A stretch of DNA of 64,000 bases from an uncultured Psychroserpens sp. (GTDB lineage Bacteria > Bacteroidota > Bacteroidia > Flavobacteriales > Flavobacteriaceae), in the NCBI RefSeq assembly GCF_947500255.1, contig NZ_CANMRL010000001.1, forward strand, positions 1,364,001-1,428,000, in the 5' to 3' direction. Both the position numbers and the translations under genes were made by a program. The notes under the pieces are model-generated. The model was not told where the DNA came from. It did no database searches and saw only the letters and a program-made list of their open reading frames with translations. Positions 52,931-63,077 of the stretch are shown here, piece after piece (the first letter of the stretch is position 1; the number at the start of each line of letters is the position of its first letter).

Positions 52931-55225
52931 TTATTCTTCAGAATCATTAGGAGTAGTCTCAACAGAAATTGTTTTTGGTTCTATAGAGCTATCGTGAGAG
53001 TTGTAATACTCTTCTAAAAGATTCATTGTTGCTGTAAGTAAATCTTTAGTTTCTAATAATAATCCAAAGTATAAGGTTGTGTTCTTCGGACTAGATTCTT
53101 CCGTTCTAGTTCTTGCGACTTGTTTTACAATTTTATCAGTAACTAAGTCAAACAACTCTTTTTTACGGTTTATTATTGATCCAATCTTTTCAAATGAACG
53201 CGAATCAAAAGCTTCTTTCGTTTCATTAAACAGTACTTCTAAAGTATCATCGACCTCTTTAAGCTCTCTAATCTGACTAAACTTAAGTTTCTTATGATTG
53301 TTGTTAATATGCTTATGACTAACTTTAGAAATGTATTCTAAAGATTGAGTCATATCTTGTAAGTACCCAAGAATATTGATATAAAAACTACTAGCTCTTA
53401 AACTTGTTTCTTCTAAGTTTTTAATGAAATAGAAAATATTATCACGTAAACTGTCAACTTCAGTAGAAAGCTTATCAATTTGTTTCTGATTCTTTTTTAG
53501 TAATGCTAAATCTTGTTTAGCTAAACCTTTTACAGCATTGGTGTAAATTCTATTTCCACGTTTTATAACATTAGAAATATTAGAAGCACTCTCATGAATA
53601 ACACCTTGAACAGAACGACTTCCTGTTTCAGTAAGTGAATCTTCATCTAAAGTTTTATTAGATTTCTTTTGATGAGACTTGTAATTTCTGTACAATAAAA
53701 ACGCAGTAATCAGTAATAAAATAGGCGTCATTACACTTGGGTTCCAGTTAATTAGGAATACGATAATACCTGCAGCTGTAAAGGCTCCAAAAGCAGTACC
53801 AAACCATCCTCCAATAACATTTAAAACACCCGCTACTCTATAAACAGCACTTTCTGCTCCCCAAGCACGATCGGCTAAAGATGTACCCATAGCAACCATG
53901 AACGTAACGTAGGTAGTAGATAATGGTAATTTCATAGATGTAGCAATAGCAATTAACACACCAGCTACCATAAGGTTAACAGAAGCTCTAATCATATCGA
54001 ATGCAGGAGCCTCAACACTTTGTGCCTTAGTTAGATTTTCATCTGGCTTATGGAAACTATGCGCTATACGTTCTTGAGTTGCTTTTGGTACTATAGAACC
54101 TAAAGCGTTAGATAACCAAGTTGTTCCTTTTACTACAGCTCTAGATATTGCGTTTGGTTCAAATTTCTCATGAGTTTCACCTTGACGTGATAAACTAATT
54201 TCGGTTTCGGCAACCGTTTTAGCTTTTTTAGAAAACCACAATGTTACCACCATTATACCACCAGCAATAAATAATAAGAAAGGCTCGGCTGGCATTTTCT
54301 TGTCTAAGACATCCATCATAAATCCTGAGGCAGCACCACCATCTAAAGTCCATGCTTCGTACGAGTGATAGGCAGCCATCGGCACACCAATAAAGTTAAC
54401 TAAATCATTTCCAGAAAAGGCTAATGCTAATCCAAATGTACCTACGGCAATAACGACTAGAAGAATACTCTTTTTTGTGATTTGCTGAAAAGCATATGAG
54501 AATAATGTAAATAAAGCAAAGCCGATAGCGATGATATAAATCTCATTTCCTTCAACATATCCTTTTAGATCTTTATAGTAAGGTGTTCCTTTTAATCCTT
54601 TCATGAAAATAAAATAAAGGATGGCTGTTAAGGCTAACCCACCAAATAAAGCACCAAAGCTCTTCATTTTCTTTTCGTATTGGAATGTGAAAATAAGTCG
54701 AGATATCCATTGTACGAACGCACCAACACTAAAGGCTATGACGACAGACAATAAAATACCACTTATAATTTCCATGGCTTTTTTAGTATTGATATAACTA
54801 CCAAGATCAGCAAAAGTTTGCGTATCTGAATTGCCAATTTTAATTAAAGCCATTACAACGGCTGCACCTAATAAATTAAATACAATAGAAACGGTTGTTG
54901 ATGTTGGTAAACCAAGTGTATTAAAGAAATCTAATAAAAGAATGTCGGTTATCATTACCGTCATGAATATGAGCATGATCTCATGAAAACTAAACATACC
55001 TGGAACAAAAATTCCTTTACGAGCTACTTCCATTAGTCCACTAGAATATACGGCTCCAATGAATATACCTAAACTAGCTACAATCATAATAGTTCTCATT
55101 GAAATTGCTTTAGAACCAATAGCAGAGTTTAAGAAATTAATCGCATCATTACTAACTCCAACTATAATATCAGCAACAGCTAATACCGTAATTGCAATTA
55201 ACATAAATAAATAAATATTATCCAT
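52931..55225 (-). CDS. PiT-family inorganic phosphate transporter fused to a PhoU-like region
   Basis: A 764-residue protein. The N-terminal 510 residues or so are a PiT symporter with two signature repeats: AVADIIVGVSNDAINFLNSAIGSKAIS at the start and LALAFSGNDLVNFIGVPMAAYHSY in the middle (family GANDxxN pattern as SNDAINF and GNDLVNF). LGLPTSTTVSIVF and MKLPLSTTYVTFMVAMGTSLADRAWG are the matching PxSTT elements. The last 200 residues (about 545-745) are soluble helices like PhoU/DUF47. Such a fusion suggests built-in regulation. The porin gene lies 81 bp upstream on the same strand. Confidence 0.9.
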   Translation of the reverse strand: MDNIYLFMLIAITVLAVADIIVGVSNDAINFLNSAIGSKAISMRTIMIVASLGIFIGAVYSSGLMEVARKGIFVPGMFSFHEIMLIFMTVMITDILLLDFFNTLGLPTSTTVSIVFNLLGAAVVMALIKIGNSDTQTFADLGSYINTKKAMEIISGILLSVVIAFSVGAFVQWISRLIFTFQYEKKMKSFGALFGGLALTAILYFIFMKGLKGTPYYKDLKGYVEGNEIYIIAIGFALFTLFSYAFQQITKKSILLVVIAVGTFGLALAFSGNDLVNFIGVPMAAYHSYEAWTLDGGAASGFMMDVLDKKMPAEPFLLFIAGGIMVVTLWFSKKAKTVAETEISLSRQGETHEKFEPNAISRAVVKGTTWLSNALGSIVPKATQERIAHSFHKPDENLTKAQSVEAPAFDMIRASVNLMVAGVLIAIATSMKLPLSTTYVTFMVAMGTSLADRAWGAESAVYRVAGVLNVIGGWFGTAFGAFTAAGIIVFLINWNPSVMTPILLLITAFLLYRNYKSHQKKSNKTLDEDSLTETGSRSVQGVIHESASNISNVIKRGNRIYTNAVKGLAKQDLALLKKNQKQIDKLSTEVDSLRDNIFYFIKNLEETSLRASSFYINILGYLQDMTQSLEYISKVSHKHINNNHKKLKFSQIRELKEVDDTLEVLFNETKEAFDSRSFEKIGSIINRKKELFDLVTDKIVKQVARTRTEESSPKNTTLYFGLLLETKDLLTATMNLLEEYYNSHDSSIEPKTISVETTPNDSEE

Positions 55226-55306: not shown

Positions 55307-56512
55307 TTAAAAGTGAAGGTCGAAACCTATTCTAAATGTAATATTGTCATCATTCCCATCTAGAGTCGTATAGCTAACATCAGATTGCACCTTTAATTTG
55401 TGACCTAAAACATATTTAGATGCTCCTAACGTATACTGTTCTCTAGGTAGTGTTCCAGTCACAGATTCAAAGTCAACAGTAGTAAAACGACCAACAACTT
55501 CGTAATTGCTTTTAAATAAGTAACCCGCTTGAAGGTTTAAAGCGTTCCCAGTTAATACGACATCACCAGTAGGTGTCGTTCCGTCAATATCAACTGCTAC
55601 CGGATCATCTGCAGTTCTTTTTGCATATTCTCCCATAAATGAGATGCCTTTGTATTTAAACATTGCATCTGCAAAAATAGTAGTTTGATCTGTTTCGTAT
55701 AAAGAACCATCAGATTTAAACATGTAATCTCCAGCAAAACCTCGTTCTCTTACAGCATTTTGGTTAAGGTTATAAGTGAAACCAACCATTAATTTAGGCT
55801 CTTCCTCACGCTTAAGGTCTGCTTGACTATAATCTCCTTTAGATTTAAATTTCCCAAAAGGTAAAAATTCAACACGTGCTGTGTATTGTAAACCACCCTC
55901 ATTGCCTTCGGTAACGTTACGTCCTTCACCTTGAGAGATTGAGAGTTTTTCGCGCATTAAAAAATCACCACCTAAGTTACTTTTATGTCGTATTTGAATT
56001 CCTAAGTCACGGTCAATGTTAAAACGACTGTTAAGTAATGATCGATCAATTAATTGCAAGTTACCCGAAGATACAACACGCTCAACGTTACCAGGAAGTT
56101 TTGTCTGTCCTGCCCATAGTTCCCAATTAGCTGCAAAATTCCACATAATAACAGCATCTAGTATGTAGCGTGGCGTATTTCTGTTAAATTGGTTTGCTCC
56201 TGAAATATCTCTGTTAGATAAACCTAACTCTATTTTATATCTAAGTTTAGGGCTGTATGCATATCCGTCAAACTTTAGACGTGCACGTCTAACTATGAAA
56301 TTATGATCCGGACTTCCATATTGATCACCATCGTGATCCCACGATGAGACAGAACGTACCTGAAAACGAGGTGCAAATTTTATGCTAAATGAGCTGTCTT
56401 TTGCGGTAAAGTTTATTAATCCTTTACCAAATGAGGTATCACTAATTTCTTGAGCGTTTACATAGGATACAATACACAATAGTAGTGCTAGGGTTGTAAG
56501 TTTAGATTTCAT
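55307..56512 (-). CDS. OprP/OprO-like phosphate-selective porin
   Basis: A 401-residue outer-membrane 16-strand-type porin: signal peptide (LTTLALLLCIVSYVNAQ), then FAPRFQVRSVSSWDHDGDQYGS, FIVRRARLKFDGYAYSPKLRYKIELGLSNRDI, AVIMWNFAANWELWAGQTKLPGN, and a C-terminal strand ending ITFRIGFDLHF with terminal Phe. The RRARLKFDG and WAGQxKxPxN blocks are typical of porin O/P. Pairing with the PiT gene supports phosphate as substrate. The ATG at 56512 starts the signal peptide; an ATG 27 bp upstream in frame is less likely. Confidence 0.88.
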   Translation of the reverse strand: MKSKLTTLALLLCIVSYVNAQEISDTSFGKGLINFTAKDSSFSIKFAPRFQVRSVSSWDHDGDQYGSPDHNFIVRRARLKFDGYAYSPKLRYKIELGLSNRDISGANQFNRNTPRYILDAVIMWNFAANWELWAGQTKLPGNVERVVSSGNLQLIDRSLLNSRFNIDRDLGIQIRHKSNLGGDFLMREKLSISQGEGRNVTEGNEGGLQYTARVEFLPFGKFKSKGDYSQADLKREEEPKLMVGFTYNLNQNAVRERGFAGDYMFKSDGSLYETDQTTIFADAMFKYKGISFMGEYAKRTADDPVAVDIDGTTPTGDVVLTGNALNLQAGYLFKSNYEVVGRFTTVDFESVTGTLPREQYTLGASKYVLGHKLKVQSDVSYTTLDGNDDNITFRIGFDLHF

Positions 56513-56518
56513 TATAAG

Positions 56519-56533
56519 TATTAGTTTTTGTCG
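56519..56533 (-). repeat. Copy 1 of a 15-bp inverted repeat, at the porin translation start
   Basis: On the minus strand CGACAAAAACTAATA, positions -21 to -7 before the porin ATG. It is exactly complementary to the copy at 56658-56672 inside the upstream structured RNA. Confidence 0.9.
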
Positions 56534-56596
56534 CTGCAAATAACCAACTCTAATGTTAACTGAATGTTTCCTAATGATTAATTTTAATGTGTATTA

Positions 56597-56632
56597 TTAA
56601 AATAAAAAAGGCTGCTTTTTTAAAAAGCAGCC
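56597..56632 (-). terminator. Intrinsic terminator upstream of the porin gene
   Basis: On the minus strand AGGCTGCTTTTT and AAAAAGCAGCCT pair and are followed by TTTTTATTTT. No minus-strand coding gene lies to its right before the plus-strand MORN-like gene, so it must end an untranslated RNA. Confidence 0.85.
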
Positions 56633-56657
56633 TCATTAGTAATCATAATTACTTAGC

Positions 56658-56672
56658 CGACAAAAACTAATA
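56658..56672 (-). repeat. Copy 2 of the 15-bp inverted repeat, inside the candidate RNA
   Basis: On the minus strand TATTAGTTTTTGTCG, exact reverse complement of the porin start-region copy at 56519-56533. Confidence 0.9.
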
Positions 56673-56712
56673 AATTTATATGAAATACTAATTGTGCATT
56701 TAAACACAATTA

Positions 56713-56720
56713 CAAATATG
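56713..56720 (-). promoter_or_regulatory. -7 box of the porin-upstream RNA
   Basis: On the minus strand CATATTTG, one mismatch from TAnnTTTG. No TTG at the -33 position. Confidence 0.35.
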
Positions 56721-56843
56721 GTCACGGAACGTAATATAATTGTAATGCTAATATTATCTAATTATTAATATTTAGATTAAATTTTAAATATCTGATTATC
56801 AATTAATTAAAATTTCAATGTTAATTTAATGTTATGTAAACGT

Positions 56844-56873
56844 TTGAATATTGTAAATTTTTAGTTAAATTTG
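56844..56873 (+). promoter_or_regulatory. Promoter of the MORN-like gene
   Basis: TTG (56844-56846), 19 bp, TAAATTTG (56866-56873): perfect consensus, 33 bp before the ATG. Confidence 0.8.
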
Positions 56874-56906
56874 ATTAGCTATGTTTAATTAAAACCCAAA
56901 TTCAAA

Positions 56907-57263
56907 ATGAAGAAAATATTAGCCATAATATTAATGCTAAGTGTAACATTTACATTTGCTCAAGAAAAACAAAAAGTTGATCTCAAAAAGGATGGTGATG
57001 TAACTAATGCTACCTATTTTTATGAAAATGGAGCCATTGAACAGGTTGGGACTTTTAATAAAGAAGGAGAACTTCATGGTATTTGGACAAGCTATGACCT
57101 AAACGGTAACAAAGTTACTGTAGCTAGTTATGAAAATGGAAAGAAAGTTGGAAAATGGTTATTTTGGTCTGGTAATAAACTTAGAGAAGTTAATTATGAA
57201 GACTCTAAAATTACTAGTGTAAGTGAATGGACAGACAAAGTTGAACTAGCCCTTAGAAACTGA
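56907..57263 (+). CDS. Exported MORN/YwqK-like repeat protein
   Basis: A 118-residue protein with a signal peptide (KKILAIILMLSVTFTFAQ) and about three MORN-type repeats (YFYENGAIEQVGTFNKEGELHGIWTSYDLNGN, VASYENGKKVGKWLFWSGNKLREVNY). Repeats of the form G-x2-G-x-W-x2-Y/W also occur in YwqK-type proteins. Role unknown; likely periplasmic or surface. It is monocistronic with a strong promoter and terminator. Confidence 0.8.
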   Translation: MKKILAIILMLSVTFTFAQEKQKVDLKKDGDVTNATYFYENGAIEQVGTFNKEGELHGIWTSYDLNGNKVTVASYENGKKVGKWLFWSGNKLREVNYEDSKITSVSEWTDKVELALRN

Positions 57264-57348: not shown

Positions 57349-60177
57349 TTAAAACTTATAGCTGTATCCGAGAGAAATTTCTGTGCCTGGCTCTCTAACT
57401 GAGAATAACTGATCTCTGGTTCCAAAAGACACATAGTCACTTTGTCTTTTGCTATTTAAAATGTTGGAAACTTTAAAATCTATAGATGACCTTCTGTCTT
57501 CTCCAAAAGCTTTGTTTAATGTGAAGTTTAAACTGTTAAAAGGTTTAGTGTATACATCAGGAACTAATCCAATACCAACAACCTCAAGTGTTTCTCCTTG
57601 TACATTATAGAATAATCCAGTTTGAAAACCAGAATCTTGGTCGTTATAGTCTAAACCGAAATTAATAAGAAATGGTGCTTGACCTTGTAAGTCTCTTTCT
57701 CTATCAACACTTTCACCATCTCTTGCCGCTAATTGTCTGCTTTGAAATTCTGCATCGGACATGGTTAGTTCAGATTTAATAAAAGACACATTTGCATTAA
57801 ACTTTAATTTATTTAAACCATCAGTGATAAATCCTAGACGTTGTCTCACTTCAAATTCAACACCATAAACTTTAGCATTACCTAAGTTGGCTACTGTTAA
57901 TTGAGTTGGTGCTTGTAAAAAGAATGACTGCTCAATAGGATCTTTAAAATCTTTGTAAAAACCACTTACGGCAAACATTTGACCATTATCTCCGAAACGC
58001 TCATATCTTAAGTCGAAATTATTCACATACGTTGGTACTAAGTTAATATTACCAATAAATAAACGGTTTGTAATAGGGTCAAAGATTCTAGCAACCGACG
58101 ATTCTTTAAAAGAAGGACGCGCAGTTGTGCGAGAATATGATGTTCTCACATTAGAATTATCATTAACCGAATAGATTAAGTTAGCCGAAGGAAAAAAATC
58201 AAACTCATCTAATATTGATGCTCTATTAAATTGTGTTTCATTGTTTTGTCCAGTGTAAAACGATTTAAAAAGTTCGGTTCTAATACCTACAACTGTTTTA
58301 AGTTTTTCAGTAACATTAAACTCGGCAGAAATGTATGTCGCACCAATATTCTGTTCGCCTTCATAAGCATCGATTGGGTTAAATTGATCACCAAAAACTA
58401 AGAATGTTCCCGAATCTGTAGTTGGATTCCATACGTTTTCTGATGCCAATAAGTTGTCGGCATTTCCATCTGCAACAAAGGAGTCGTCACCTTGTATATT
58501 GAATGTGTAATCGTCAATGCTGAAATCTCTAAACTTATAAGTGTAAGCGCCTCCAAATTTTAGTTTTCCAGGTCTACCAAAGATGTCAATCGTTTTGTCT
58601 AAATCAACTTTACCAGCCCAGTTCTCTTCAATAAGATTTCTCCACAATTGAATTGGAAATGTAGAAGCCGACGGACTAACAAAGAATTGACCTTCTCCAG
58701 ACTGTTGGAATGGTGTAATTCTGTGAGCTTTGTCCATAACTTTTGAAAATGTTGGCGATAGTTTCCATTCTAAATTAAACGCATTCTCATCATCACTTAA
58801 TCTGTGCTTTCCGTTAAGTAATAAGTTTGTGATCGAACGCTCCGTATAGGTTAATGAGTTTTTCACTAAAGGCTCAATTCCGCCTCCAACACCATCTTGT
58901 GATATATCTTGTTCAAAAAAACCAGCCGTTGATTCTCCATTTTGAATATGTAAGAAATTGGCTTTGTATTTCGATTTATCGGTTTTATAAGTTAAGCCAA
59001 GCATTCCATTAAGGATGACATTATTGATTCCTTCTGATCCTCTTGAATCTAAAACAGAACTTAAGTCGTTAACTGAAGAATCATTAAAGTTCTTGACAAA
59101 GGCACCATCATTTCTGTTTTCATAAAACGTGGTTTCATTCTTGTATGAGAATGAAGCTTGATACCCTATTTTGTCATCTCCAACATCATATTGGTTCCCT
59201 AAGGTGAAACCAATATCAAAGTTCATTCCGCTAGTTTCTTGTTTTGCTTGTAATTCCTTTTGAAATCTATTAGTTAAAGATGTTAACAATAATCTGTTTT
59301 CAAATGTACCAGGAATAGGTTGGTATCTATGTATTGGAAGATCTCTAGTGCCATCATCAAAACCAAAAAAATCAGTATCACTTCCAGTATAAGTAAGATA
59401 CTTATCATTAAAGTGCATATCAGGATTATAAGAAGTACCAACTGAAAGTGTATACTCAGGTTTTGTAGGGAAATCTTTAGTGACAATGTCTACAATACCA
59501 CCAGTAAAATCTGCTGGATATTCTGCAGATGCCGATTTCAGTACAATAACATTATCTAATATATTCGTTGGGAATAAATCCATTTGAATCGTATTTCTAT
59601 CTGGATCCAAACCTGGGATATCAATACCGTTTAATATAGATTTTGTGTAGCGGTCACCCAAACCACGAACATAAACGTATTTTCCACCTTCAATTGAAAC
59701 ACCAGGAACGCTTTTTACGGCACTTGCAAGGTTGCCTGCGCCAGAACTTTTTATAGACTGTGCTGATAATCCATCTAAAACCACAACAGATTTCTTTTGT
59801 AAATTTAAAACTGAGTTTTCAGTATTACGCTTTACAGAGGTTTGAATAATTACCGTATCTAATGAATTTGTTTCCAAAGTCACATCAAGATTAGTAACTT
59901 CTCCAGCCTTAATGACAACGTCTGTTATTTCTTGAGTGTTATATCCAACAAATGAAAAGACTAAAGTATAAGTTCCTGGATCTAATTCTAATTCGTATTT
60001 TCCATCAAAATCAGAAGTGGTTCCAGTAGTAGTTCCTTTTACTAAGATATTAGCAAAGGCCATTGGCTCTACAAACTCACCATCAATTACGTTTCCAGCG
60101 ACTGTTCCTTTTTGAGCATTTACAAGACTAACACTAATAAATAAAAAGAAAAGAAGGGAGTAAATGTTTTTATGCAT
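57349..60177 (-). CDS. TonB-dependent outer-membrane receptor with carboxypeptidase-regulatory-like N-domain
   Basis: A 942-residue receptor. It has a signal peptide (IYSLLFFLFISVSLVNAQ), a carboxypeptidase-regulatory-like domain (about 20-110: GTVAGNVIDGEFVEPMAFANILVKGTTTGTTSDFDGKYEL), and a plug (about 120-225: LDGLSAQSIKSSGAGNLASAVKSVPGVSIEGGKYVYVRGLGDRYTKSILNG). The barrel ends in EISLGYSYKF. There is no SusD partner; instead a beta-helix lipoprotein gene precedes it. The ATG at 60177 starts the signal peptide. Ligand unknown. Confidence 0.93.
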   Translation of the reverse strand: MHKNIYSLLFFLFISVSLVNAQKGTVAGNVIDGEFVEPMAFANILVKGTTTGTTSDFDGKYELELDPGTYTLVFSFVGYNTQEITDVVIKAGEVTNLDVTLETNSLDTVIIQTSVKRNTENSVLNLQKKSVVVLDGLSAQSIKSSGAGNLASAVKSVPGVSIEGGKYVYVRGLGDRYTKSILNGIDIPGLDPDRNTIQMDLFPTNILDNVIVLKSASAEYPADFTGGIVDIVTKDFPTKPEYTLSVGTSYNPDMHFNDKYLTYTGSDTDFFGFDDGTRDLPIHRYQPIPGTFENRLLLTSLTNRFQKELQAKQETSGMNFDIGFTLGNQYDVGDDKIGYQASFSYKNETTFYENRNDGAFVKNFNDSSVNDLSSVLDSRGSEGINNVILNGMLGLTYKTDKSKYKANFLHIQNGESTAGFFEQDISQDGVGGGIEPLVKNSLTYTERSITNLLLNGKHRLSDDENAFNLEWKLSPTFSKVMDKAHRITPFQQSGEGQFFVSPSASTFPIQLWRNLIEENWAGKVDLDKTIDIFGRPGKLKFGGAYTYKFRDFSIDDYTFNIQGDDSFVADGNADNLLASENVWNPTTDSGTFLVFGDQFNPIDAYEGEQNIGATYISAEFNVTEKLKTVVGIRTELFKSFYTGQNNETQFNRASILDEFDFFPSANLIYSVNDNSNVRTSYSRTTARPSFKESSVARIFDPITNRLFIGNINLVPTYVNNFDLRYERFGDNGQMFAVSGFYKDFKDPIEQSFFLQAPTQLTVANLGNAKVYGVEFEVRQRLGFITDGLNKLKFNANVSFIKSELTMSDAEFQSRQLAARDGESVDRERDLQGQAPFLINFGLDYNDQDSGFQTGLFYNVQGETLEVVGIGLVPDVYTKPFNSLNFTLNKAFGEDRRSSIDFKVSNILNSKRQSDYVSFGTRDQLFSVREPGTEISLGYSYKF

Positions 60178-60196
60178 GATTGTTTTATTATTGAAA

Positions 60197-60227
60197 CTAT
60201 TGCTCACCAATTTAAGGTGAGCAATAG
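60197..60227 (-). other. Strong intercistronic hairpin between the lipoprotein and TonB receptor genes
   Basis: CTATTGCTCACC-AATTTAA-GGTGAGCAATAG is a perfect 12-bp stem ending 19 bp before the receptor ATG. No T-run follows, so it is more likely an mRNA-stability or processing element than a terminator. Confidence 0.7.
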
Positions 60228-60263: not shown

Positions 60264-61532
60264 TTAGAATCCTAAGTTTCCTGCATCGTTAGCATATGTC
60301 CAGCTTAAGCTAGATGTCGTAGCGCCAACAGTATTAGCACCTTCAGTTACAGCTGTAGCGGTAGAACCAAATCCAGTAACCATAACTGTTTCAGCTTTAT
60401 TTACGAAAATGCTAGTCACATCTGTAACACCTGTAGGTAATACAATTTCCCAAGCTCCAAAGGTTAGGTCTCCTGTATTGTAGTTTGTCGCAACACCATC
60501 ATTATCTAACTCAACATCTGAAGAAGCTTTAAATCCGAAAGCATATACATTATTTGTGAATCCTGTAGCACCAGATCTGTAATCGGCATATTCACCATTT
60601 TCAGTAACAGTATTACCAATAATAGTTGCATTTTGTAATGTAAATGATCCTGTTGCCGAACCTTCAGGTCCATCGATTTCGAAAGCATGATCAGAGAAAT
60701 CTCCTAAAACAACAACCGCATTATCGATTGTACCAGAATACGCTTGATCAATATCTAAAGCATCATCACCTTGAGCCCATACTAATAAGTTAGAAGCGTT
60801 TACTGTTCCTCCAAAAAATTCAATACCATCATCAACATTAGCAACGACTTCAATATTATTAATTATTGTTCCATTACCAACACCACCTAAAGTCAACCCG
60901 TTAATTTCGTTTCCTTCACCAATTAAAGCACCACCATGACGAATAGAAATATAAGAAATAACACCTGAGTTATCGGCAGCATCAGTACCTCCATAAAGTC
61001 CGAAAGTGTCGTCAGCAGGAATTCCTTCTATTTGAGCTTCAGAAATATCTCCTGAGAAAGAACAAGGCGCATTACCTAATATGATTAAACCTCCCCAAAG
61101 ACCTCTATCGTTTTCATCTAAGTTTGTACCAGCAGTTTCACCACAAGTAATGTTATCACTTGTAGATGTGAATATAATTGGTTCTGATGCTGTACCTACA
61201 GCATTTATTTGTGAGCCTCTAGCAACAATTAATGCAGAAGCTAAAGACCCTGTTCCAGCTGTTCCTTTTATAATGGTTCCGGCTTCTATAGTTAAGATAG
61301 CACCATTGTCAACCACCACTTTTTGGTTTAATTGATAGATGTTATCGTTTGTCCATGTTGTATTTTGCGTAATAGCTCCAGTTACTGATACTACTGGACA
61401 ATCATCACCATTTCCATTTCCATTTTGAATAATAGTGATTTCTTCAATGATAATAGGAGTGTCGTCATCTTTAAAACATCCCGTAAATACAAGAGAAGAA
61501 GCGATTAATGCAGATAATACTAATTTTTTCAT
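60264..61532 (-). CDS. Lipoprotein with right-handed beta-helix-type repeats
   Basis: A 422-residue protein with a lipobox (LVLSALIASSLVFTGCF, Cys 19) followed by an acidic linker. The body is Gly/Asn/Ile-rich with repeating short strands typical of a beta-helix (LTIEAGTIIKGTAGTGS, GLWGGLIILGNAPC, GVISYISIRHGGALIG, GTIINNIEVVANVDDGIEFFGGTV, WAQGDDALDIDQAYSG). Such lipoproteins are commonly found beside a TonB receptor in marine Bacteroidota and have been misnamed multidrug transporters. It is transcribed ahead of the receptor and probably works with it at the cell surface. Confidence 0.75.
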   Translation of the reverse strand: MKKLVLSALIASSLVFTGCFKDDDTPIIIEEITIIQNGNGNGDDCPVVSVTGAITQNTTWTNDNIYQLNQKVVVDNGAILTIEAGTIIKGTAGTGSLASALIVARGSQINAVGTASEPIIFTSTSDNITCGETAGTNLDENDRGLWGGLIILGNAPCSFSGDISEAQIEGIPADDTFGLYGGTDAADNSGVISYISIRHGGALIGEGNEINGLTLGGVGNGTIINNIEVVANVDDGIEFFGGTVNASNLLVWAQGDDALDIDQAYSGTIDNAVVVLGDFSDHAFEIDGPEGSATGSFTLQNATIIGNTVTENGEYADYRSGATGFTNNVYAFGFKASSDVELDNDGVATNYNTGDLTFGAWEIVLPTGVTDVTSIFVNKAETVMVTGFGSTATAVTEGANTVGATTSSLSWTYANDAGNLGF

Positions 61533-61575: not shown

Positions 61576-61603
61576 CAAAGATGATTGCATAATGTAAAGT
61601 CAA
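61576..61603 (-). promoter_or_regulatory. Promoter of the lipoprotein-TonB receptor operon
   Basis: On the minus strand TTG (61603-61601), 17 bp, CATCTTTG (61583-61576), one mismatch in the -7 box. It lies 43 bp before the lipoprotein ATG. Confidence 0.55.
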
Positions 61604-61733
61604 GGTTAAGTTGATATTAAACCTAAATCATAAAACCGTTAATTAAGTGTTATGAGAAATTGCTATTTTTTGTTAATTCGAAACATTAATTTAACATTGA
61701 AATAGTTTATCTTGCTGCTGCTAAAACGATACT

Positions 61734-63077
61734 ATGAATTGGGAACAATTACTCTCCTTAAAACGATTTGGAGATACTCATAAACGCTTACGAAAAGAAC
61801 AAGATGAAACACGATTAGGCTTTGAGGTTGATTATGATCGTATTATATTTTCTTCAGAATTCAGAAGCTTACAAGATAAGACACAAGTAGTACCTTTATC
61901 TAAAACCGATTTTGTTCATACGCGATTAACCCATAGTTTGGAAGTGAGTGTTGTTGGACGATCCTTAGGTCGTAAAGTAGGACAGAAATTATTAGAAAAA
62001 CATCCGCATTTAAGAGACGTTCATGGCTATCAGATCAATGATTTTGGAGCTATAGTTGCGGCGGCTGCATTGGCACACGATATTGGAAATCCGCCTTTTG
62101 GGCATTCAGGCGAAAAAGCTATCGGAGAATTCTTTAAAACGGGAGAAGGTCGTTATTTTGAAGATCAATTAACGGCAAAACAATATGAAGACCTATGTAG
62201 TTTTGAAGGCAATGCTAACGGATTCAAAATTTTAACCGAAAGTAGAAAAGGACGTGTAGGTGGTTTGCGTTTAAGTTATGCAACACTTGGTGCTTTTACG
62301 AAATACCCTAAAGAATCGCTTCCCAAAAAACCAACAAAACATATAGCCGATAAGAAGTATGGCTTTTTTCAAAATGAAAAAGATCTCTTTCAAGATATTG
62401 CTGAAGAATTAGGTTTAGTAAAAAGAGGAAATGACAATGATGTGAGTTATTGTAGACACCCATTGGTATATTTGGTTGAAGCAGCCGATGATATTTGTTA
62501 TACAATCATAGATTTTGAGGATGGGATCAATTTAGGGCTTATTCAAGAAGAGTACGCTCTAGAATATTTAATCAATTTGGTTCGTGACTCTATTCAAACT
62601 AAAACCTATAATGCACTGCAAAGTACACAAGACAGATTAAGTTATTTACGATCATTGGCTATTAATACGCTTATAAGTGAAGCTGTTGATATTTTTATGG
62701 AGCATGAAGAAACAATTCTATCAGGAGAGTTTTCTAAAGCACTCATAGATTATAGTGATTATGAGGCCCAAATAAAAGATATTATCACATTAAGTATTAG
62801 TAATGTGTATCAAGCTACCGAGGTGGTTGATAAAGAAATCGTAGGATATAAAGTCATAAATGAACTTCTGGCTGTTTTCAGTAAAGCGGTAGTTAATAAT
62901 CTACAAAATAATGTATCTAACTTTGATAAATTGATATTAAAGTCAATAAAAGATTATGTCGATCTCGAAAAGGACAATCTTTACGATTGTTTATTATCAG
63001 TTTGCTTTTATGTTTCAAAAATGTCAGACTCTAACGCAATTTTAACATATCAAAAATTAAAAGGTAATCATTTGTAA
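61734..63077 (+). CDS. dgt: Deoxyguanosinetriphosphate triphosphohydrolase-like protein
   Basis: Hydrolyses dGTP (or other dNTPs) to the nucleoside and triphosphate. The 447-residue HD-domain protein has RDxxR-type start RIIFSSEFRSLQDKTQVVPL, H in TRLTHSLEVSVVGRSLG, the HD pair in AALAHDIGNPPFGHSGEKAI, and YLVEAADDICYTIIDFEDGI. Motifs are intact and the length is usual. The dNTP specificity cannot be told from sequence. No gene shares its transcript. Confidence 0.92.
   Translation: MNWEQLLSLKRFGDTHKRLRKEQDETRLGFEVDYDRIIFSSEFRSLQDKTQVVPLSKTDFVHTRLTHSLEVSVVGRSLGRKVGQKLLEKHPHLRDVHGYQINDFGAIVAAAALAHDIGNPPFGHSGEKAIGEFFKTGEGRYFEDQLTAKQYEDLCSFEGNANGFKILTESRKGRVGGLRLSYATLGAFTKYPKESLPKKPTKHIADKKYGFFQNEKDLFQDIAEELGLVKRGNDNDVSYCRHPLVYLVEAADDICYTIIDFEDGINLGLIQEEYALEYLINLVRDSIQTKTYNALQSTQDRLSYLRSLAINTLISEAVDIFMEHEETILSGEFSKALIDYSDYEAQIKDIITLSISNVYQATEVVDKEIVGYKVINELLAVFSKAVVNNLQNNVSNFDKLILKSIKDYVDLEKDNLYDCLLSVCFYVSKMSDSNAILTYQKLKGNHL

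Follow-up and report, generated by a model that had tools for sequence, protein, structure and literature searches.

The window, by which we mean the whole 64 000-nt stretch of DNA analysed, carries a minus-strand element sitting between a MORN-like gene (56907–57263, plus strand) and a porin gene (55307–56512, minus strand). Read along the minus strand, a repeat box is followed by a TTTG box, a 5′ hairpin, a long irregular hairpin that holds an antisense arm, and a terminator; ∼30–40 nt past the terminator come an apparent porin promoter, the target and then the porin ATG, whose first base is 56512 (a correction to an earlier note). The features are as follows.

56907–57263, plus: small MORN_2-like protein, divergent from the RNA and syntenic with it (PF07661, 26.9 bits, below the cut-off of 29.6)
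56728–56746, minus: 11-bp-spaced repeat ATTACAAT N3 ATTACGTT, a possible regulator site, read from the sequence
56713–56720, minus: putative small RNA −7 box, CATATTTG, matching a TAnnTTTG-type promoter
56603–56712 (model span), minus: predicted small RNA gene, matched over its full length by models R1 (built partly from the window's own sequence) and R2; fold z −5.95
56693–56708, minus: 5′ hairpin, from predicted folds and two-sided pair changes among relatives
56635–56692, minus: long irregular middle hairpin with the arm in its apical part; a like fold in eight relatives and the window
56680–56685, minus: UUUCAU, which in the predicted duplex forms a second helix with AUGAAA at the start codon of the porin
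56658–56672, minus: antisense arm TATTAGTTTTTGTCG, a perfect 15-nt complement of the porin leader
56608–56634, minus: intrinsic terminator hairpin with a 12-pair stem, and a T-rich tail to ∼56599
56552–56570, minus: direct repeat GAAACATT N3 TTAACATT in the promoter region of the porin; 140 loci give the consensus GaAACATTaAgTTAACATT
56537–56544, minus: putative porin −7 box, GTTATTTG; TTTG in 14/14 same-genus loci
56519–56533, minus: target site CGACAAAAACTAATA in the porin leader, the exact complement of the arm TATTAGTTTTTGTCG
55307–56512, minus: porin, the target gene, 401 aa (PF07396 Porin_O_P, 37.3 bits, cut-off 20.9)
52931–55225, minus: PiT-type phosphate transporter, the next gene 3′ of the porin (PF01384 PHO4, 101.7 bits)

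The original prediction for this locus had paired the porin with a PiT transporter, and the Pfam matches agree, a PF07396 porin being followed by a PF01384 PHO4/PiT gene. It had also described a terminator that has no coding gene upstream. The nearest gene on that side (56907–57263, plus) is divergent, so that the terminator indeed closes no coding gene. A TonB-dependent receptor gene (57349–60210) adjoins the porin–PiT region and lies beside a gene for a 422-aa protein (60264–61532), for which we obtained zero Pfam matches.

Fold and promoter-like boxes of the predicted RNA

The predicted fold of the RNA has a free energy of −34.0 kcal/mol, compared with a mean of −16.98 kcal/mol for shuffled sequences (z −5.95), and none of the 200 shuffles did as well. 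The likely transcript covers ∼56600–56708, or ∼107 nt, and would be arranged as three hairpins. A structured minus-strand stretch closed by a strong terminator had been proposed, and this is what we find: the 12-pair stem at 56608–56634 is followed by T-rich sequence, and 56597–56632 has a predicted folding energy of −14.4 kcal/mol. The element thus has both the intrinsic terminator and the stable fold of trans-encoded base-pairing small RNAs.

The fold is shared by relatives. In a structure alignment of 82 diverse sequences, 92.8% of the cells are paired and 24 of the 28 pairs show two-sided changes, while slid controls give 22–49% pairing over 1480–1731 cells, as against 2169; these pair counts are flattered, because the alignment was fitted to the covariance model. 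An unfitted alignment of 14 sequences gives 93.6% of cells paired, with two-sided changes in 4/28 pairs, a number equalled by 39 of 500 shuffles. When eight relatives were folded singly, their hairpins resembled those of the window RNA.

Upstream of both the RNA and the porin there are sequences resembling promoters. One study gives TAnnTTTG as the promoter consensus (PMC9723704). A TTTG is found near the −7 position of the small RNA in 119 of the 140 loci compared below; in the leaders of the other 21, either it is missing from the stretch scanned or there is too little sequence. The repeat ATTACAAT N3 ATTACGTT lies 11 nt ahead of the TTTG of the small RNA, and its columns are partly conserved among the loci. 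In front of the porin, a promoter-like unit of the form GAAACATT N3 TTAACATT N11 TTTG spans 56537–56570. The TTTG is present in 140/140 loci, a figure reached partly by construction since the script demanded TTTG or TTAG near the target, and a gap of 3 nt separates it from the target site. Given this spacing and the TAnnTTTG rule, transcription of the porin probably starts at the target or close to it, which would place the site at or near the 5′ end of the message.

Complementarity and co-variation of arm and target

As had been noted, a 15-nt complement of the arm precedes the porin ATG; CGACAAAAACTAATA spans −21 to −7 relative to it. The arm and target 15-mers each occur once in the 64-kb window. 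We generated 5000 dinucleotide-preserving shuffles of 56513–56720 and recorded inverted repeats with copies at least 60 nt apart. The longest was 14 nt, 12 nt was reached in 47 shuffles, and 15 nt was reached in none. The suspicion that so long a match is unlikely to arise by chance is borne out, and chance is excluded as its source. The arm had been placed between the hairpins; an arm is present, but it falls within the loop and upper stem of the middle hairpin.

A second helix may extend the pairing to the start codon, where UUUCAU faces AUGAAA. The motif TTC[AG]T is found 5′ of the core in 108 of the 140 RNAs, and in 101 of these 108 it faces an ATGAA start, although an internal stem includes it as well, which gives its conservation a second possible cause. 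For the window, the duplex is predicted by cofolding to reach −56.9 kcal/mol, compared with −34.0 and −3.4 kcal/mol for the separate folds, a gain of ∼19.5 kcal/mol.

Natural variation in arm and target was collected by a pair search that allowed one mismatch in the arm and two (or one inserted A) in the target, limits that make the high pairing percentages partly a matter of construction. The 162 loci scanned yielded 144 arm/target pairs, from which two on the wrong strand (L164 and L255), a duplicate of one place (L264) and a recombined locus (L251) were dropped, leaving 140. The recombined locus (G143:C107:7000-8296) has, as read by eye, a 34-nt perfect inverted repeat joining the arm region to the porin promoter and target, with a contig end nearby; it reflects either recombination or an assembly fault. 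From the 18 loci giving no pair we read L091, L145, L167, L172, L243, L245, L252, L256, L259, L263 and L274. The RNA and porin are both present at L167, where no target was found on reading; at L172 the target is degraded, and at L274 it precedes a likely GTG start.

The core comprises 12 pairs in each of 140 loci, or 1680 cells. Two-sided changes that retain Watson–Crick pairing occupy nine cells. Changes in the target alone keep a G-U pair in 42 cells and do not in 25, 18 of the latter coming from six loci with one inserted A, which have no in-register pairing in the core; changes in the small RNA alone give three G-U pairs and eight mismatches. On the original prediction one arm should not change without the other. 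G-U pairing is kept in 45 of the 78 one-sided core cells, but not in the other 33 (18 from the inserted-A loci, seven on the target side in six other loci, L095, L162, L165, L168, L175 and L260, and eight on the small RNA side, spread over seven loci).

Arms pair better with their own targets than with those of other loci. Over all 140 pairs the mean energy was −20.49 kcal/mol for true pairs and −19.16 kcal/mol (SD 0.13) for permuted ones; with one locus per distinct arm (49), the values were −21.01 and −18.16 kcal/mol (SD 0.30). In each case 0/5000 permutations did as well, in a test that ignores relatedness. Eight of the 49 arms (L006, L010, L011, L082, L101, L133, L140 and L249) score better with the median foreign target than with their own. 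A sign test on independent pairs from the porin tree, covering 130 loci (L081, L082, L089, L144 and the six inserted-A loci being left out), had too few pairs and was underpowered: positions 0, −1, −2 and −3 lean towards joint change, none of them significantly, and positions 1 and 11 show no such lean.

Several loci have changed on both sides. A T-A pair has become C-G at L146, and A-T, with new flanks, at L276 and L278–L281, which perhaps represent few independent events. TTTTAG/CTAAAA is seen at L250 and L246 and, by eye, TGG/CCA at L274 (G268) and TGG/TCA at L421 (G224). The core of L419 (G674, from another family of the order) appears by eye to be flipped, reading UUUUAGUC/GACUAAAA, and its likely start-codon helix is AAUCAU/AUGAUU in place of UUUCAU/AUGAAA. 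The proposed covariation of both arms in relatives is therefore upheld by the permutations and by these two-sided loci, and the RNA has the co-varying complementarity to an mRNA start region that is typical of its class, with the tree-aware test underpowered on this point.

Distribution and loci where RNA and porin lie apart

Of 23 same-genus genomes, our own included, 17 have a DNA match and 14 carry the element; the three other matches (L017–L019) are short, due to chance and without either neighbour, and were left out of the counts. The MORN-like gene and the porin flank the element in 14/14. Among the nine genomes without it, eight have no tblastn match to the porin and one has a distant porin with 41% identity. 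The RNA and the porin thus tend to occur, or to be missing, together.

The covariance model R1, derived from the 14-sequence same-genus alignment (A1), found matches at E ≤ 0.1 in 225/397 Flavobacteriaceae genomes and 157/237 genera, where the E-values are rough and the weakest matches are probably chance. In the best 30 loci, which include our own genome and one other member of the model, the MORN-like neighbour was detected by tblastn in 29. A Porin_O_P-type gene, identified by tblastn in 22 cases and by Pfam in seven more, follows the RNA by 73–92 nt in 29, and before its start codon the target site is present, intact or altered. At the thirtieth locus (L091 of G142), a PiT gene follows the RNA instead. 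A pattern scan of named genomes returned at least 117 stretches; the 80 listed among these belong to genera that we take to be Flavobacteriaceae, or to unplaced Flavobacteriaceae, Flavobacteriales, Flavobacteria or Bacteroidia records.

An order-wide search with R2 at E ≤ 0.001 gave matches in 17/296 genomes, 11 in the same family and six outside it. Two of those six were inspected, of which G674 is convincing and G649 is not; inside the family, the core was absent from the match in G663 on reading. In 36 chosen genomes, R2 gave some match at E ≤ 0.1 in 35, the weak ones being mostly at chance level by score, and the new loci L407, L408, L409 and L411 were read from this search. One genome (G162:C1) has two copies of the RNA–porin pair (L144 and L150), and one of the two porin frames stops after 32 codons.

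Two genomes from different genera hold RNA and porin apart. In G122 (L408) the RNA occupies C1:1766827-1766924, ∼3.1 kb from its target at C1:1770035. Judged by reading the proteins, the neighbours of this RNA are first a carbonic-anhydrase-like and next a SulP-like gene, each on the strand opposite to it. G099 (L407) has the same layout, also with ∼3.1 kb between the two parts; the intervening stretch was read in part. The same carbonic-anhydrase-like and SulP-like pair, by eye, stands between RNA and porin in both genera. The two-part complementarity is kept despite the separation, at −23.2 kcal/mol in G122 and −22.1 kcal/mol in G099. Foreign targets that suit the arm better than its own number 4/140 for G122 and 29/140 for G099, and foreign arms that suit the target better number 13/140 and 15/140, respectively. 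That the match persists across ∼3 kb and beside opposite-strand neighbours favours action in trans. With the promoter-like region between RNA and porin at the usual loci, it would also favour a separate transcript for the RNA.

Elsewhere the RNA is kept with no adjoining porin in the stretch read (G142, G128 and G036). The next gene downstream of it is PiT in G142 and G128. G142 has a 40% identical porin elsewhere in its genome, with no core site in front of it. It is therefore not certain that the porin is the single dedicated target. In G068 (L255, C29) the RNA, the porin promoter and the target are all kept, and only a 33-codon frame directly follows; another reading frame comes after that one.

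We also looked for further targets in our own genome. Sites with at most one mismatch to GACAAAAACTAAT number 26, compared with 49 for the reversed control, and this relative rarity means that no multi-target regulon is seen there. Two of the 26 lie within 32 nt before an ATG that opens at least 60 codons. One is the porin site; the other, which by our reading would be a Met within the coding sequence of a channel gene, was rejected as a target. A looser scan of 149 genomes of the family served to find more porin sites.

Probable mode of action, a possible phosphate signal and known systems

We consider it quite likely that the element encodes a trans-acting base-pairing small RNA of ∼107 nt, with its own promoter and an intrinsic terminator, that blocks translation of the porin. 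The original prediction had offered a stable small RNA acting in trans as one of two readings, and conservation across the family, co-variation and the two separated genomes speak for it. The RNA would be made from its own promoter and ended at the terminator. The loop of the middle hairpin, with its UUUUUGUC core, would then pair with its partner CGACAAAAACUAAUA in the porin mRNA, at the 5′ end or close to it. Contact at UUUUUGUC may nucleate a duplex that spreads along the leader as far as the start codon, where UUUCAU would pair with AUGAAA. Such a duplex would cover the 5′ UTR and the AUG and so block initiation, perhaps also leading to decay of the message. An Hfq-type RNA chaperone is probably not needed. 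Hfq (PF17209) was found in none of 19 genomes (our own and 18 relatives), so that the host gene expected for an Hfq-dependent small RNA is absent from this set, whereas a control search recovered PF17209 in 5 of 14 known genomes.

The other reading originally offered was an attenuator, in which the terminator as a rule stops transcription arriving from upstream; should the polymerase continue past it, the arm would fold onto the porin start region within that one mRNA. The common strand, the 73–92 nt that separate RNA and porin at 29 of the best 30 loci and the perfect complementarity of the arms in the window would all fit. Yet a conserved promoter-like GaAACATTaAgTTAACATT..TTTG stands between terminator and target (n = 140), which should make the target the start of the porin mRNA; the match outlasts, in both G122 and G099, a separation of ∼3.1 kb with an opposite-strand gene beside the RNA, and in G142 and G128 the RNA precedes PiT and not the porin. 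A cis-acting leader calls for one transcript with no promoter in between, and the arrangement, as far as sequence can tell, is otherwise. We therefore regard an attenuator as quite unlikely, and folding of the leader on read-through as disfavoured by the loci at hand.

Pairing with the porin mRNA might instead activate it, the RNA capping and stabilising the 5′ end. The predicted site lies at or near that end, where pairing could block decay, but the predicted duplex also includes the start codon and should block initiation; repression is what we infer, and activation seems unlikely. It is very improbable that the arms are simply half-sites of an operator, placed in opposite orientation near two promoters and bound by a protein. 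Both do lie near promoter-like boxes and are strongly conserved. Against this, the arm belongs to an RNA fold that itself co-varies, and several loci show joint changes of arm and target. That 42 of the 67 target-only cells keep a G-U pair points the same way, but counts for little alone, since at a site of this base composition most transitions keep such a pair.

The neighbouring genes make it a reasonable guess that phosphate status, perhaps through PhoB, sets the level of this RNA. In our own genome, the repeat TTAACATT N3 TTAACATT is not enriched (23 matches, compared with 27 for the control); with the TTTG spacing added, there are five sites and two controls, and the porin and the 60264–61532 protein are among the five. 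The leader of the latter, the 422-aa protein, has an 11-bp repeat before TTTG at 61576–61609 (minus), a layout that by eye it shares with the leaders of the porin and the small RNA. A near-copy of the porin promoter repeat, GAAACATTAATTTAACATT, occurs at 61680–61698, 35 nt ahead of a gene (61734–63077) for a protein that is dGTPase-like by eye.

A matrix of the porin promoter was applied to 34 leaders of matches to the 60264–61532 protein in relatives. None scored above the 99th percentile of random windows; the five from proteins with at least 55% identity look similarly arranged to the eye and exceed the 95th. With the same matrix, 2/139 leaders of the small RNA exceed the 99th percentile, their median is −6.2 compared with a 95th percentile of −9.4 for random windows, which were longer, and the window's own repeat ATTACAAT N3 ATTACGTT scores weakly. 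These scores lend weak support to the idea of a Pho box.

Phosphate responses have been described for related genes. In a study of Flavobacterium johnsoniae, the porin of the PhoBR operon was unchanged with phosphate (fold change −1.3, not significant), and a strong increase on phosphate depletion was reported for the adjoining TonB receptor and lipoprotein (PMC8115612). By reading, the TonB receptor and 422-aa protein of the window recall Fjoh_0545/0546, which that study gives as strongly induced by phosphate depletion (PMC8115612). For Bacteroides fragilis in low phosphate, one polyphosphate-selective porin O is reported to go up and another to go down (PMC3547664). A wider proposal, tentative and in our view rather doubtful as a whole, is that a family-wide, Hfq-independent small RNA serves as a switch in the phosphate programme: the regulator bound at the 11-bp repeat would be shared with the neighbouring TonB receptor/lipoprotein pair, translation of the porin–PiT unit would be shut when the high-affinity route is on, and RNA and target would be a dedicated pair whose co-evolution, the flip of the core included, extends over the family and past its limits.

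A base-pairing small RNA acting on a porin mRNA is of a kind already known. The RNA family itself, its usual place beside its target and its co-varying loop appear new within the literature searched, which took in few subscription papers and gave no recognisable description of this RNA. Searches of Rfam 15 matched only a tRNA in the 64-kb window, and for 56480–56910 gave 14 matches at E ≤ 10, none of which comes near its gathering score. The system links an RNA regulator with genes for an outer-membrane porin and a phosphate transporter in a large, mostly marine group. Its target is plausibly a dedicated one and its pairing site is clear; with 140 natural arm/target pairs and two relocated copies to compare, translation control in these bacteria could be put to a direct test.

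MicF and MicC of enterobacteria are trans-acting RNAs that pair with the leader and start region of porin mRNAs, using Hfq. The RNA described here resembles them in its predicted pairing with a porin mRNA leader and start region. It differs in that no Hfq gene was found in the 19 genomes, that its gene usually lies right beside its target and that it reads from a hairpin loop; no sequence relation is claimed. To our knowledge, few base-pairing small RNAs are known in Bacteroidota. GibS, RteR and DonS are base-pairing RNAs of Bacteroides thetaiotaomicron, from the same phylum, and differ from the window RNA in targets and lineage. Rfp18 and the window RNA are both structured small RNAs of one bacterial family, and by lineage Rfp18 is the nearest described small RNA in the literature found. 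Rfp18 of Flavobacterium psychrophilum is reported to be conserved beyond the species and to affect metalloprotease mRNAs, with predicted pairing by its third stem-loop (PMC9723704). The word porin is absent from the main text on Rfp18 (PMC9723704).
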